Part shown: in pieces, positions 38,701-64,000 of the stretch | How the letters are laid out: every line of letters starts with the position of its first letter | Position numbering within the stretch: the first letter of the stretch is position 1 | Assembly (NCBI RefSeq): GCF_003073045.1 | Contig: NC_037593.1 | Location: 11,084,735-11,148,734 of the forward strand | Source of the DNA: Pomacea canaliculata | Lineage: Eukaryota > Mollusca > Gastropoda > Architaenioglossa > Ampullariidae | DNA length: 64,000 nucleotides | Reading direction: 5' to 3' | Position numbers and translations under genes: made by a program | Notes under the pieces: generated by a model | What the model was told of the DNA's origin: nothing | The model's input: the letters and a program-made list of their open reading frames with translations, nothing else | Database searches by the model: none

Positions 38701-41700
38701 ATGAAGTCAAAATCTTTCCCTAATATTTTTCTGTTTCTATGCTACTTGGAACTGTTGTGAGGAGGTGGGGACTGGAGGAGAGGATTCAGACAGGAAATAC
38801 TGTTTATCAACATGATGAACAATGTTCACTTAGATATGTTGGTTATTCAATGTTCGAAAACATTTTTGAACAATTTCTGCACATATCTAAAATGCTTTGG
38901 TACGTTGCTATATCTTATGCACTTTTAAAGGAACTGATCAATTCACATATGTAGTTTTATCAAACTGCTTAATATTAATGGTCATGAGATATTTATATTC
39001 TGTATTTATTTACATTTGCCAGGCTTTTTTTTTTAAACAAAGTCTTAAAACATAGTACAGTTTTGTTTGGATTAGCTATACCTGTTCAGTTATGCTCAAC
39101 ACGTCTCTAAGAACATGCATAAGAAATACATTATGAACAAGAAGGCAAAAAAAGGTTACATATTTTGAGACATATCCTATAAAATTATAAATAACGCTAT
39201 ACAGAAAAAAGCACACATTGCAAGGGTAGACCACTGTGATAATCCTTACTGCTTTCTTTTTCTTTGAAAACTTGCGCTTGAAAGATTTAACAAATCCATC
39301 AGATATATCACAAAATTTTTCTGTTTCTTGTAGAACTTTCTGTGCTGTAGCAAGTTTGTCCTCCTCAAATGACATCAGAGCTTGCTGAAAAGACATGAGA
39401 TTTATGAACAAAGATTCCTTTTTTCTTAATCATAAAATTAGTTCTTATAAAACAGTGAAAATAGCTCTTTCCATACAGGTGCATGCACAATGTGACTAAA
39501 CATTGAATGTTAAGCAGTCACTTCCCCATCAACTCACCATTGCTGTTATCAGCGACACAGAAGTGATTAAATATTGAAAAACTTTATTCTCACATTTTAA
39601 AAATTTCAAATGAAGTTCAGCTTACTATGTACTTTGTAGTTAAAGTATTCAAAGAAACCTTTGCACATATAAAGTGTTCATCATATGCATTTTTCTGGCA
39701 TTAGAATGTCTTGCATGTTTTGTGCATTACCTCAAAATATAGCAATAATAGCAGCTTCTGTTTTAAACATTCTTTATGTTATATCAGTTTTCAAGCCTAA
39801 ACTGTATTTATATATATATATGTATTATATATAACAGTATTTTATATATATAGCTTTAACAAAAATCCAGGCAGACTACAGCTACTAGCACCATACATGA
39901 TAACATACAGACATTCATTAAACAAGTGGAAGCAAAGGAAAATTCTTACCATGAAAAACACAAAACTATAGCCAGCCTGCATCAACGGACTCTCTTCTCT
40001 GCAACAGAAAATAAACACACAGTACCTAACAAAGTATGAAAATGATGTATAAAATTAGTACCTGTCTGGTGAAAGTCCTTAAGCTAACCAGGTAGTAGAG
40101 AAAATAACATAGTCACATGAAAGTAACAAATATCCCCAAAATTCATGTACCTTATAAAAAAAAAAGTGTTGCAATGAGTGTATTTCTGTTTTTATGATAG
40201 GTTGACGAATAATAAAACCCACAGTTTATTTGCAACTAATCTTGGCTCAAATAGATGCAATAGATTAAAGATTGGCAATTGAAAAAAATATCAAAGGTAT
40301 ATGAGTCAGAATAGAAATCAATACAGGCCAATGTAGCCTGGCTAGTAATTGATATAATAATAAATGTGCACTCATGCTCATATAGAAGCACCTGATATTG
40401 AAATCTTTTTATTCGATGATATCAATAAAACATTTGCTTTTACTTTTATTTACAAGATAATTTTTACAAAAACGTACAAGTGAAGCCCACCTGCTTCACA
40501 TTATATCTAGAAACAAACTCTTGAATAACTTGCTTAATACAAGGGGACAAAAATCTGTTGGATAATTAGCCATTGCTTGCTCACTGGATTTTTTTTCTGC
40601 TTATTGATCAGTCCCATATTGAGCTCAGCTAGTAATCACAGCATTATTTGGGATAAAGAAATGATCAATTAATTGTGTGGTGGTGTATGATAGGTACAAT
40701 TATGACCAGTGGAGCATAAAAAAGTAACTAAAGTATGAGCTTATCCCAGGCTAGAAGATAGACCCAGACTGCTTCAAACTTTAGCAGTGTATTGTGCATG
40801 GAAGGAAGTGTGTGTGTGTATGCATTCATATATAATCATCTTTATAAATGTACATAAATGTAGACATCATTATGTATATAATAAAATACACTTTAACACT
40901 TGTATCTATTTTAAGTACAACACAAGTGATGTACACATATGAACTAATCTGTTACCATAATTTGAAATTAACACTTGCAAATTTTAACAGTTAGTAAAAG
41001 GGTATAAAAAATAAACTAAAAGATGTTTAATTTCAAAGAAAATTTAATTTTAGCCTGAGTGAAACGTGGCAATCAAAATGCATTGAACAATTTTGTTTTG
41101 TTAATGTTGCTAAGAATTAAACCGGAGGTTACATGGTGGTAACAAAACACAGCAGGAACCAATCAAAACGCACTATACATTTCTTAATAAAGTCATGTAG
41201 CAGTGAAACTGGATATAAGTATATAGAAGGAAATGCAAAAATACATGCTTAGCCAACTATTTCTACAGAACATTGAAAGCAAAAATATTATGACGACTAC
41301 GTCAGTTTCTAAAATCTTTTACGTTTAATATCATGTTTACGCACAAATACTGAATTCATTGAAAAGTTTCAGAATATGAAAAGCAGCTGGTGTCCTTTTC
41401 CTTGTAGATTAATATCATGCAAAGAAAAAGAAATCAGTAACTGTATATATATATATTAGTGGCTTTATAAAATATGTCGCTATTTAGAACAAGCAAGTAA
41501 ACTTCGAATACAATTTCAGTCGTGGACAGAAAAAAAAAATGCACAACTAATATACCTGTACTTGTCAAACAATGCCGACGCCTCATCGAATCCATTATTC
41601 AACATCATGTTGATACCCGTCAAAGCCATTTCCACCTCGTCGAAGCTGCCTTCTCCATTATCTACCGAGTTCAAGTCTTCCATTCCACTACCCTGCGCCA

Positions 41701-57321: not shown

Positions 57322-59288
57322 CTAGCGCTTGAGAACGACAGAAGCGACGATGATAAGGACGCCAGCCACGCCGAAGAAGATGCCTCCGACGATGCAGAGA
57401 GCAAAGGCCCACGACAGGTGGTCCTCTTCCGCGTCGTTGGCTCCGAATATGACTGTACCCAGCAGGATGCAGCCAGCTGCCGCACAACATAAAATGTAAA
57501 GTACAGAGTTATAAAAGTAGTAACAGAAATAGTTAATCAACACTAATAGTTTAATAGTTAACAATAATGATAAATATGGCAAGATTAGATACCATCCATC
57601 CACCATCCATCTTAGGCAGACACGGAATAGCGCGTGTACACACACACATACACACACATACACACCCCTATGCTCTACCAACCTGCTGCAATGCTGCAGA
57701 TGCCGCTGAGGATGGGCAAGATGCGGCGATCCCGACAGGTGGCGACACACACGCCCAGCAGCAGCAGCACGATGGACGCAATGGCGGCTATGAGTCCGAC
57801 TGTCTCGAAGAACTGCGTTGCCCGAGTGTAGCCTGAAAAGAAGGTCAATGGAAACTGTAGATGACCTACATCACTACACTGTTGTTGAAACAATTGGCTG
57901 CGTCCAGAAGAAAAGGGAAAAAAACTTAAATTAAATTGCACACAGCTCGTATCTTGGAAATTAAAGATTTTAGAAATAAATTAGAATTTTGACACGTAGC
58001 TTTAATTTAGTTGGATAGCTAACACTAAAGGTTATCATGAAAAAAGAAAAGGATATATTGGAGACTTATTGCCGAGTCAGTTATTTCTAATGATGTGTTC
58101 TCTATGGCTGATGGCTCATGTTTCGCTTTAGGGAGATGTGTGTAAATTATGCGAAATATTACGATTATTTATTATTATAGCAGTATACATTATTACTAAC
58201 TACTCTAGGGAATCGGTCCAAAACAGTGAGTGTATGCTGTTACAGTGCACGTGACAGGTGGCGTACAGATGTCAGTGAGTGTTAATGCTGCACAAGGACA
58301 AACTTTTTTTCACAGTCTAAACAATGAACTTTTGACCTTTTGCTTTTGTTTTCCTTCTGCGCAGAGCTGTACAGACTGGTGATGAAGAGTGGTCATGTGA
58401 TCAGCTTTATATGGCTACACCCCGTGATACCTTGTAATAGGCTTGGCTTACATGTCAGGTCTAATTGATTGCTCGTTCCATCTTTCCTTCTACGTTCGTT
58501 GCCCGAAGTGTTTCGCCATACAGTGCATAACACCGTGTACAATATGTACATTGTCAGGAAAATACCTATAGGGTCGTTTGTTTAGTATTTAAAAAAAAAA
58601 ACGAAAAACAAAATCAGTAAAAAAAGACATCAACAAAAATCCACAACCCTCGGATGATCGAGTGACTACATATTTATGTCAAATCACACTGTGCAGAAGC
58701 GATGGAGGTAAATTTAATGTGATAACAACATGTAGGCCTCGCATAATCTTGTCTATGACAACAGTCAATACTGTAACAATGACCACAAACATAAACGTAA
58801 ACAAAAATGTCATTTGTCTAAAAACAACTCAACGCTAAGTTTAATATCTTATGAGTCACAGTATACAGGTTAGTATTGCTTTGCCTTTTATTTTGTTTTT
58901 ATGTGTTTAAAAGTGTCAAAGTATTTACAGTGTAACCAGCTGCATTGCATTTCTATTATCTCCATCCTCATCCTCTGGCTTCCTCTACGCCCTCACCCCA
59001 CCCTCAACCCCAGCCAGAAAAAAACCGGTCACTTGTCTGATCGACCCTCTGTAAAGATGTTTACTTACCATGTGCATGATCACCCGAGATCAAAGATGTG
59101 CACACTTCCACGATCACGGTCCCGAAAGGACCTTTCTCTACGCACCGCTTCCACAGACCGTAGTAGAAGTGATAAGTGACGTAACGCTCATCGTGCCAGT
59201 AGGGGGCAGCGTAGCCAATCAGATCGAACAAGGCTCCCAGCCCTTGCAGTATCAAGGCGACATTCAGCGAGAAACTGATGTTATCCAT
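57322..59288 (-). CDS. Claudin-like four-TM protein, isoform from first exon A
   Basis: Exons in transcript order: 59069-59288 (A), 57683-57832, 57322-57476, 174 aa. Exon A has membrane segment 1 (ALILQGLGALFDLIGYAAPY) and extracellular loop 1 with the claudin/PMP22-superfamily signature: a W (PYWHD), then GLWKRC and, 13 residues later, C in EVCTS. Exon 2 gives segments 2 and 3 (LIAAIASIVLLLLGVCVAT, ILPILSGICSIAAG). Exon 3 gives segment 4 and a short basic end (VASVVLKR). Junction phases are 1 and 1. Family members sit in the plasma membrane and build paracellular barriers or channels, or modulate other channels; which applies here cannot be told. No C-terminal PDZ-binding YV is present, unlike classic claudins. 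Exon A has a related alternative 2.2 kb upstream. Confidence 0.85.
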
Positions 59289-61449
59289 GGTATAGTGACT
59301 ATAGTCTATTTCTTTCGTTTATTTTTCTTCTTCCTCCTTTTTTTTTTTTTTGTCGCTTGCTCATTCAATATATCACCAGTGAGGTTTTCATCCGCGGTCT
59401 TGTAGACCTCTTGTAGTCAGTTCAAATCTCAACTAATTAACTCTCACGGAGTGTATTTTAAACAACAAGAAGCAAGAAAATTAGTTAAAAAATTTTAAGC
59501 ACAACCAAAGTGCAAAAAGAAACTGCTGGACTGGATTCCTACCCAACCCTATAAAACAACGCGGCGCGTGATCCTCCAAGTAGTGTGACTCTGACTCGTG
59601 GATAGTAACTCGAGGTTTGTCCGAGGACCGCAGCCCCGCACAAAGTAATGAAGTTGTGACAATTGGACTAATTGTTTACTGTGGATGGAGGCAGTGGTGA
59701 GTTGAGTCAGCAGACGAGTTGATGCAAGGACTTGCTGCTGAGCAGCGCCGCGGCCACGTGCGCCCCACATGACAACAGCTACACGTGCCGGTGAGTGCGA
59801 GAAAAACAATCTCGCCAAGCTTTCTCTGACTCAAGTATCAGGGTAAAAGCAAGGGGGTTACAAAATATTATACACAATGGAAAGTGAGTGCGACAGTACC
59901 AGCAACAGGGGAACAGGCGGACGACGGGCGGACAGGCAGGCAGACAAAGATATAAATTTATGGCTTTGTAAGTGAGATATAAATAGAATATGTGCGTGGG
60001 TGGGAGGAAGAAGGTGGGTGTGGATGTGTAATCGTTCGTCATCGGTGATTTAAAAGCGAGGAGGTGAGAAACGGAGCGAGTAATTTAAGTAAAATAAAAA
60101 TACCAAGGTTGACCTTTTCACGCTTTGCTGAAAAACAAACAAACAGAAAGGAAAATAAAAACTTTCTTGGATGCTTGCCATCAAGACGGGCGTTACCTAA
60201 TAACCAGGGGCTTCCTGAAAACGTCCTGGCATCATCCAGAATTGCAGCCGCCCTCTTAGCAGCAGCTTTCTGCACGCCTCATTTCGTTGTAGACAGATTC
60301 GTGCACAGAAACGACTACACCAGCCACAGCCAGATGTTTCTCTTATCTACACCTGCTTGAAAAAGCTTAAAAACAAACCAAGCGAAATTTATGTTACGAT
60401 AACTCAAAGCCAATTCCCAAAAAAATGCAGGTCTGATTTCACAGGCAGTGGGACGAATTGAAACTCAGTTAATTTTCTGGCGAAGAATTCACTTACCTAC
60501 GGCAATGCCCTCCATATACATCCACGGGACACTGCATTTTGTGTCGTTAGATAGGTAGATAAATATTCTTCTTGTTCTTAGTCATGGAAAATCTTTCACA
60601 GACGTACCGTATATCAGTCTCCTCGGCATGAAATAATGTTTTCGTGATTTTTTTGTCGTGTAGCATTTGTCGGGCTTCAAAGAAATTTCACACCTGGCCC
60701 CAGAGAAGGTAACGGCGACCGTGGAAACGGTTTGTGCTTCGCCATCTGAATGCCTTGCCATAGTTACTTATGTTTAATATCCACATGCTGTACCCCAGTT
60801 ACTGATGTTCAGTGTCCACATACCTTGCCCTAGTTCCTTATGTTTAATGTCCCCATGTCCCTATTTTTTAAATGATGGTTATGATTAGGAGGAGGTGAAG
60901 GAAGGCGATGAAAAGGAGATATAAAAGGGTTAAGAAAAAAAAACTTAGTAATAAAAGCTACAGTTTTTATGCACTTAATAAAATTTATATCCCTACACAC
61001 CGATAGACAGACAGGAAGACAAACACACAGACAGAGGCAGAACAGAGTGGGGTCGATGAGAGAGAAGGTAAAATAATTAAAACAAAGTAGATAAGGGGAA
61101 TGAGGAAGATATACTGATGACTCGAGACCGGAAACACAACGCAAACAGCAGATCAAAGCAGTGGGTAGATGGGGAATGGTGTGTGGACGGCATGTGTCTC
61201 CATCCCCCTCTTACCTCTGTCATACTGGCTGTCCACAATGCTGGTGCACACCTCCGGATCCATACTACGTCTGTGCCAGGAGTTGTAACAGTAGCGCCAG
61301 AGGCCATAGGTCACCCTCACCAGGTAACGCTCTGACGTCATCCACTCCTGGTCGTGCCACTGAGGGACAGCGAATCCGATGATGTGCAGCAGCAACCCGA
61401 TGCCCAGCAGAACAAAAGCCACGATCAGCGGAGTTGCGATGGACGCCAT
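57322..61449 (-). CDS. Claudin-like four-TM protein, isoform from first exon B
   Basis: Exon B, 61215-61449, encodes IVAFVLLGIGLLLHIIGFAV (segment 1), PQWHDQEW, YGLWRYC, EVCTS. It aligns along its whole length with exon A (IGxAxPxWHD, YGLWxxC, EVCTS) and ends in the same phase 1 (AGA G|GTAAG). I find no second or third exon of its own between 59289 and 61214. The simplest model splices B to the shared exons 57683-57832 and 57322-57476, giving 179 aa. The ATG at 61449 is the first ATG of the frame, immediately before ASIATPL. Exon B's loop 1 is longer and more basic around YNSWHRRS than exon A's. Alternative view: B belongs to a truncated duplicate gene. The exon itself is convincing; its splicing partners are inferred. 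Confidence 0.68.
57637..57666. repeat. (CA)n microsatellite in claudin-like intron 2
   Basis: ACACACATACACACAC-type repeat ending 17 bp downstream of the donor of exon 57683-57832 (minus strand). Confidence 0.85.
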
Positions 61450-61934
61450 TCTTGACCAAGACTCTGTGTCCGACCTCACTTACTGATCAAATTCTTTTAT
61501 ATCCGTGATTAATTCACAATTTCCTTTTTTGTGATTGTCCAGGCGGACTGTATACAGAATGAGCGTTGATTTACAGTTCAATCCAGACACACTTTATACC
61601 GATTTCAGCAGGTGATGTGGGTTGAATGTCTCTGCAGTCGGTCCTATTGAAGCCGGTCAGTCTTCTTCTCTTACAGCGTCTGACTTCTAGATCCCGAACT
61701 TCTCCGGTGTTCCTTTTCTAGGTTGTCAAAGCACTCGTTTCACTTGTTCAACAGGTGATCCACCCACCCCGCTGCAGTTTGAATCGTGACAGCAGTGCAC
61801 GGAATTGAAAAGCCGCCCATCAACAGGTACAAGACCGAGCTGGCTGCCAGCTCCAGCGATGGTGTACAGTGGCGGGATGCAATGTCAGCCAAAAGGCAAC
61901 CCAACAGCCACTCCCTGGCACTGCTAATAAAAGT

Positions 61935-61977
61935 AGCAACAACAGCAGCAGCAACAGCAGCAGCAGCAGCAGCAGCA
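61935..61977. repeat. (CAG)n microsatellite
   Basis: Interrupted CAG/CAA run, about 14 triplets, upstream of claudin-like exon B. Not within a supported coding exon. Confidence 0.95.
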
Positions 61978-62905
61978 CGCATCGAATCAGTGCGAGAGAG
62001 GGAAGCAAGCCGACTTCTGGTAATGGTGCAGCGCAGACTCACAAATTCTCCTGATTAAGATCACTTGATCATTATTTTATTGCGAGCAGGTATTTGTATG
62101 TGGTCAGAACCAGACACACCTGAGAATAAACGTTCCTTTTTTTCTAAAGTAAACGGTTTGGTTAACTAGCAAGTGGTTAAACATCCGTTTTAAGGGATAT
62201 GCATGCACCTGGTCAGTCGAGGTTAACGATCTCAAGAAAGGTAAGGGTTACAGCGGTCTGTCAGTCAGTCAACCGTGTGTACACGAGAAGCAGTGGATGG
62301 CACACACACAGACACACAGACACACAGAGGGGCGTAGACCTGTCGCACGTAGAGCAAGAGTTGTTCCACCTCTGGACCGTTTCTGATAGCAATACAAACA
62401 TCAAGGATGCTGAAGGGCAAAGGTCAAAGACAATTAATTCAAAGATTCATGAGCGTGTTGTGTTTAGATCGTGCACGAACCACTGACACGTGACCACTTT
62501 CGTTACCCCAGACAAAGACTGACGGCAACCTGGAAAATGTGGGCCGACTGGCCAAACTTGTTGCAGGTGCAAGATGCCTGTCTGAAACCACCGACGAGTA
62601 ACACGCTGCAGTGACTTTTGTAATTTTACTTGGACTTGGAGCCAGAAGGGTACAGACTAAGAGATAGTCGAAGGAGAATATTGAGAGAGTAGGAAGTAAA
62701 GGAAGGAACGAAAGAAGATGGTGAAAAAGCACAATTCAAACACCAGAAGCATCTATAGACGAAAGAAAGAAATAAACATTTTCTGCTTGATATTTTTTTC
62801 GGACTCTTGTAAGGTTGCACTCAAAATACTGCTGTTAAAATAGTCCACTTGAACCGACCATTTGGAATGCATTACCAGTAAGTCTCAGGAATATCACAAC
62901 AGAGA

Positions 62906-62962
62906 CATCATCATGATCATCATCATCAATCATCATCATGATCATCATGATGATCATCATCA
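62906..62962. repeat. Palindromic ATC/GAT microsatellite
   Basis: A CATCATCATGATCATCATCA-type run. Because the unit and its complement alternate, it is strongly self-complementary. Confidence 0.9.
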
Positions 62963-63214
62963 GCCTAGCCCATCAACATGATTAGTGTCTGTGGGAACTT
63001 TTCCTCTTGTTCTATAGGAGTTGAATGGAAGAGGAGAAAACGCCAAGAACCAAATAATTTAAATGTCTACAACATATTTTTCTGACAACATTAGGAAACC
63101 ACTACTGATGTGTTCTGTAGAAGATGCTGTGGCAGTGATGTAGTGAACACATGAACACTGGCTTTGGCCTTTACACTGCCTTTACTACTCCAGTCTATGT
63201 CTCTGAATAGAAAC

Positions 63215-63263
63215 GTGTGTGTCTGTGTGTGCGTGTGTGTGTGTGAGAGAGAGAGAGAGAGAA
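63215..63263. repeat. Compound (GT)n(GA)n microsatellite
   Basis: A GTGT run passing directly into GAGA repeats. Intergenic. Confidence 0.95.
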
Positions 63264-64000
63264 CTAATAATGAAATGGAAAGGCTACAGACACTTTATGT
63301 AAACAAATTGACTGTGAATACTCCTCCAAACCCTTGGCAGAGCGCCGTACAGGTAAGATAGGGGTATGGAGAGACCTGACAAGCACAACTGCTAATCAAG
63401 ATCGTCTGCACTCAGGCCAGGGTGAAACAATGTTATACACATGCACACACACACACAAACAACCGAAAATCAGGTCACACGTGTCAAAACAAGACTACAT
63501 TATGCTTTTCAGAAAGCATTGCAAGGTAAGCTGTTTCTCTACGTTTATTTAGTTAATTTTTCTCTGAGGGGTGGTGTAAAGATAGCAGTCATCTGGGTCT
63601 GCTTACAAATGCTAAATTAATAGATGAAAGAAGGCTGAACACATTTCTTTTGTCTTCTTGATTGTTTATAACCTCAAAGTAGGAATGTACTGCAATGTAA
63701 TACATTATTCTTATACGTAATCCGAGTACATATACTTCGGATGAACCATAGGTCTGTCGGGCATAAGCAGGTATGCTTATCACTTCCACACCCATCAGAA
63801 CTTTCAATTCTTTCTAATGTAAAATAAATGTTTCCGTGTGAATTACTTCACAATTGATAAAGATATCTTCTCTCAACTTTATTAAGAGCCATCGTCTTGA
63901 CTGACGAAGACATTTGTCACACCTTTGGTTTATCTTTTTAACCCTTTCTCTGCATGGTTCGGATGCCTGATGAAGTCACCTGATAAGGTTGGCACTGCGC

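Follow-up and report, generated by a model that had tools for sequence, protein, structure and literature searches.

A single claudin-family gene in this snail genome appears to possess three alternative first exons arrayed in tandem, referred to here as A, B, and C, which precede one constant body, a reading to which a probability of roughly 0.78 may be assigned. The locus displays the features of an alternative-first-exon gene, that is, homologous first exons which end in the same phase, along with one downstream set. That anatomy, together with the assignment of the predicted protein to the claudin family, is well supported by the sequence. We infer in addition that A, B, and C are transcribed, that this is from separate promoters, that the choice among them is made by tissue, and that the resulting swap of loops alters either paracellular or partner selectivity. 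The window, i.e., the whole stretch of 64,000 nucleotides that was analysed, corresponds to C4:11084735-11148734, and whole-genome searches spanned 440,159,624 bases in 24 contigs. Positions are collected in Table 1.

Table 1. Exons of the locus and related claudin-like loci of the same genome (positions without a contig name are those of the window)
Feature	Position	Strand	Description
First exon A	61215..61449	(-)	Start codon, TM1, extracellular loop 1; 235 nt = 78 codons + 1 nt, phase 1
First exon B	59069..59288	(-)	Start codon, TM1, extracellular loop 1; 220 nt = 73 codons + 1 nt, phase 1
First exon C	C4:11149452-11149683 (64718-64949, extended window coordinates)	(-)	ATG start, 232 nt, phase 1
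Shared exon 2	57683..57832	(-)	Last part of loop 1, TM2, cytoplasmic loop, first part of TM3; 150 nt, phase 1 at both ends
Shared exon 3	57322..57476	(-)	Remaining TM3, short loop 2, TM4, stop; 155 nt
In-window extent of locus	57322..64000	(-)	Runs on beyond window end to exon C, 64949 extended
Claudin-like cluster	C4:11900203-11926500	four genes plus, one minus	Five three-exon genes, each with own exons 2 and 3
Claudin-like cluster	C10:13608803-13621054		Three tandem genes; next-best matches of shared exon 3
Claudin-like first-exon pair	C1:43366001-43381500		Duplicated colinear pieces, 81-93% DNA identity

As read along the minus strand, the order of these exons is C-A-B-exon 2-exon 3. The start-to-start distance of A and B is 2161 bases, and exon C is found 3.3 kb upstream of A, approximately 0.7-0.8 kb past the end of the window. 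Introns leading to exon 2, as taken from the coordinates, are 3.4 kb (A), 1.2 kb (B), and ~6.9 kb (C) in length, and the assembly is without any N across C4:11142000-11151000. The first-pass annotation had described two first exons, both of which are real, but the count is three, with the additional one, exon C, lying beyond the window end.

The three first exons all terminate in phase 1, and do so at the donors GAG/GTAAGA (A), ATG/GTAAGT (B), and CGG/GTAAGT (C), where the slash marks the junction. When the 590 minus-strand GTs over 8.5 kb are scored with an approximate weight table, A has the second-ranked donor, C the third, and B the fourth. Exon 2, with acceptor CTTCTTTTCAG/GC, opens with the remaining two bases of the split codon, and its own donor, CAG/GTTGGT, is weak (rank 29 of 590). 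Exon 3 then carries the frame to one stop. A and B consequently can be joined, both in phase 1, to the same exon pair in frame to that stop, just as had been claimed previously, and the C model as well is stop-free through exons 2 and 3. The spliced models are of 179 (A), 174 (B), and 178 (C) residues. The top-ranked of the 590 donors is TAG/GTAAGT, at window ~60499 on the minus strand, within the A-B intron. It has no claudin-like exon beside it, and possibly is cryptic or instead serves a non-coding first exon. Upstream of exon A, at window ~61930-61985, there is also a CTG-type trinucleotide run, a leucine run that is open in one frame.

A, B, and C are read as first exons because an in-frame stop is found close upstream of each ATG, by 33 nt (A), 33 nt (B), and 21 nt (C), and because there is no evident acceptor between that stop and the ATG for any of the three. 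The stretch preceding the B start codon in particular is purine-rich by eye, which is unlike an acceptor. That B might be an internal exon was considered and is ruled out by its in-frame stop 33 nt upstream along with there being no pyrimidine tract before its ATG. TATA-like words, given here as raw occurrences with positions relative to the ATG, consist of TATAAA at -149/-52 for A and TATAG at -265/-15 for B, with none for C. The simplest mechanism, and also the most likely, would be one in which each of C, A, and B possesses its own promoter as well as its own start codon. Whichever first exon is transcribed would then be spliced to exon 2, as the donors are strong and there is no evident acceptor on A, B, or C. 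The choice of exon would in this manner determine TM1 along with almost the whole of loop 1, while TM2-TM4 would stay constant.

Homology among the first exons is seen at the protein level. Each of A and B encodes one hydrophobic helix that is followed by a loop with W-GLW-C-C residues, and in C it is GIW which replaces GLW. A whole-genome search using exon A returns matches to A, B, and C, plus two weaker matches on C1, and the best genome match of exon C besides itself is A (1.9e-6). Over aligned residues, identity is 38% for A-B, 30% for A-C, and 30% for B-C. When helix and loop were shuffled apart, with the composition of each kept, 0 of 2000 shuffles matched the observed score for any of these three pairs. 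The earlier description of A and B as homologous and positioned as in Table 1 is borne out by these comparisons.

Identity at codon positions 1+2 is 58% (A-B), 51% (A-C), and 51% (B-C), versus 27%, 40%, and 36%, respectively, at third positions. Because third positions differ more than do positions 1+2, and because the frames are open, the sequences suggest that A, B, and C are old copies which have been retained for their protein. The ratio dN/dS among the three is unusable, synonymous sites being saturated. A DNA self-comparison reveals one inverted match of 21 bases and, within the A-B intron, a short tandem repeat. The exons themselves lack a mutual match, so there is no sign in that comparison of a recent or assembly duplication.

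A profile that was built from 22 first-exon stretches, chosen by motif from other claudin-like loci and with A, B, and C excluded, nonetheless recovers all three within a 143-kb region spanning the locus, at E of 9.8e-14 (A), 9.8e-13 (C), and 8e-10 (B). The next match there is at 0.15, and no fourth first exon is found by this profile at E<0.1 within those 143 kb. A tree of 25 first exons, over 69 columns, pairs A with B (89/83) and leaves C unplaced. Of 200 bootstrap trees, 12% unite A, B, and C, and their monophyly is not resolved with these 69 columns. That the tree does not group C with A and B counts against the array, as does the weakness of the exon 2 donor.

Within the reach of the searches, there is one convincing downstream pair that is predicted to fit A, B, and C. 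In genome searches, which score best candidates only, exon 2 has a strong match to itself only, with the next match at E 0.3. Exon 3 similarly has a strong match to itself only, followed by matches at 0.0015 and 0.087, both in the C10 cluster, and then at 1.7. Use of the locus's own exons with tblastn uncovers no second copy of exon 2 or exon 3 over these same 143 kb. An exon-3 profile built from paralogues alone recovers the shared exon 3 (E=1.7e-8), while the shared exon 2 went unrecovered, even at E as high as 10, by an exon-2 profile built without the locus's own exon. With profiles from which one cluster at a time was left out, exon 2 is recovered for 3/3 genes in C10 (E 0.0003-0.004) and for 1/5 at C4:11.90-11.93 (E<0.01), and exon 3, at E<0.01, for 2/3 in C10 and 3/5 in C4:11.90-11.93. 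Two weak matches to the exon-2 profile within the 143 kb, at window 39673-39831 of the plus strand (E 6.4e-4) and at C4:11192422-11192631 (E 0.0027), were rejected as a second exon 2, since by eye they look like hydrophobic stretches or repeats matched by chance. Both are located outside the interval from C to exon 2. The first-pass annotation had proposed a single downstream set, and had named a second full exon set elsewhere as evidence that would speak against it. No such set was found in the snail's own genome, and no convincing second pair emerged from genome searches, from tblastn over 143 kb, or from profiles.

Other claudin-like loci of this genome supply a point of comparison. All eight first exons in two other clusters possess their own exons 2 and 3, i.e., 3/3 at C10:13.61-13.62 Mb and 5/5 at C4:11.90-11.93 Mb, though as a control these clusters are to be read with most of their exons having been in the profile training set and, for C4:11.90-11.93, with all but 374 bases having been read. 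The genome has further claudin-like matches beyond these two clusters. In the clusters examined, the family therefore multiplies by whole genes, and it is in this respect that the A, B, C locus differs. The C10 cluster is like the A, B, C locus in its three-exon plan, in its phase-1 junctions where these were read, and in having an exon 3 that also ends just past TM4. It is unlike that locus in consisting of three whole genes with private exons 1, 2, and 3. Candidate phase-1 sites in C10 are seen for 3/3 exon-1 donors, 2/3 exon-2 acceptors, 1/3 exon-2 donors, and 3/3 exon-3 acceptors. For the C1 first-exon pair, the profiles did not pick out downstream exons, and the pair apparently is a younger duplication.

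Given whole-gene tandem duplication as the pattern in both of those other clusters, and given also that the C1 pair sits in duplicated colinear pieces, it might be supposed that what is present here is two or three tandem genes. Exon C, and perhaps A, would then have private and strongly diverged exons 2 and 3, with only the nearest first exon using the acceptor at 57832. The limited reach of the exon-2 profile across clusters lends this supposition some further room. Between C and exon 2, however, neither tblastn nor the profiles identify a convincing relative of exon 2 or exon 3. The best profile match over that span is of 6.8 bits (E 1.4), and corresponds to a low-complexity stretch directly following exon C. 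Open stretches of hydrophobic coding potential that lie between C and exon 2 resemble low-complexity intron by eye, and the best of these, in the B-exon 2 intron, likewise by eye hits a stop two codons in if it is entered in phase 1. Separate tandem genes are, on balance, quite unlikely.

It is also the case that duplicated gene pieces are often non-functional, as a matter of general knowledge, and this would favor there being just one working first exon, with B, C, or both representing decaying, unexpressed remnants of partial gene duplications. A relic as old as these copies seem to be, however, should have lost its frame and its splice site. A, B, and C instead have open frames, a start codon, the W-G(L/I)W-C-C residues, and top-ranked donors, and this is with third positions that share only 27-40%. 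That B or C is a relic can accordingly be viewed as very unlikely, and three usable first exons on one constant body is the reading that is retained here.

What sort of tetraspan protein the array encodes is a distinct issue. All three spliced models fall above the Pfam curated cut-offs for membership in the PMP22/EMP/MP20/claudin superfamily, with PF00822 at 43.7 (A), 43.3 (B), and 43.2 (C) bits versus a cut-off of 26.7, and PF13903 at 44.4 (A), 30.7 (B), and 37.2 (C) bits versus a cut-off of 29.1. This agrees with the claudin-like label that the gene had initially been given, as too does the W-GLW-C-C of A and B. Vertebrate claudins have a cytoplasmic C-terminal tail that ends in a PDZ-binding motif. 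The snail protein terminates in VVLKR straight after TM4 and, as it consequently is without such a tail or a PDZ-type ending, it is called claudin-like here rather than a classical claudin.

The array thus might be real and yet encode a PMP22/TARP-like tetraspan, one in which the swapped loop would pick a partner, that is, a channel or a receptor, and not an ion path. The array is compatible with this possibility, which draws support from that same absence of tail and PDZ-type ending, and from the nearest solved-structure sequences, which with a profile are CACNG8, a TARP, at E=2.4e-5, and then claudin-3 at only 0.015. Passage of every spliced model through the Pfam claudin-superfamily models, along with the W-GLW-C-C of A and B, would seem to point in the other direction. 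GLW is found in CACNG8 too, however, so this motif is not exclusive to claudins and alone cannot separate the families. A PMP22/TARP-like protein is to be taken seriously, at somewhat less than even odds.

Whether it is an ion path or a partner that the loop would select, the three loops of the array differ in their properties. Net charge, as K/R minus D/E, is 7-7=0 for the A loop, 5-5=0 for the B loop, and 8-3=+5 for the C loop. The C loop furthermore carries three glycosylation sequons, with A and B having none. At its most ambitious, the array could be viewed as a protostome's independently evolved, three-member variable-first-exon claudin. A constant four-helix body would be combined with three anciently separated loops, of which two would be neutral and the third strongly cationic as well as N-glycosylated. 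These would be promoter-chosen in different epithelia, reproducing the anion/cation switch of CLDN10 from the same modular exon boundary. That complete scenario is doubtful. Should transcripts confirm the array, then it would represent a natural loop-swap experiment, with the same TM2-TM4 body found in combination with three loops. If true, it would also allow one to test in an invertebrate if permeability or the choice of partner is set by loop 1 alone, and would raise the question of whether the phase-1 intron following loop 1, which is present as well in the C10 relatives, predisposes the family to first-exon arrays.

Among known systems, CLDN10 is like the snail locus in that its alternative first exons replace TM1 together with most of loop 1, while the rest of the protein stays the same. 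The first 73 residues of claudin-10b come from exon 1b (PMC5521874), which may be compared with the 73 codons of exon B. Claudin-10a, described as an anion channel, has seven positive residues and one negative residue in the loop (PMC6862131), versus eight K/R and three D/E in the loop of exon C. By analogy with claudin-10a so described, the exon C isoform might favor anions. The snail locus is unlike CLDN10 in having three first exons versus the two of the CLDN10 major isoforms, and in comprising three coding exons in all, without C-terminal tail or PDZ motif.

The CLDN18 isoforms (CLDN18.1 / 18.2) each have their own promoter and exon 1, with later exons in common (PMC9818346), and are to that extent like the snail locus in placing separate first exons before common later ones. 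The snail array is unlike CLDN18 in having three members, in its occurrence in a mollusc, and in its promoters being putative. Variable exons of the UGT1, GCNT2, and protocadherin clusters are larger than those of the snail locus, and these clusters are unlike it as well in encoding different proteins. They nevertheless share with it the presence of tandem homologous first exons before one constant set (PMC1885805; PMC3325998). Among the papers listed, none by its title or the opening of its abstract describes an invertebrate claudin with alternative first exons. Convergence with the vertebrate CLDN10 and CLDN18 is plausible by analogy, and the snail array would be a variant of the arrangement known from those vertebrate genes rather than a new principle.
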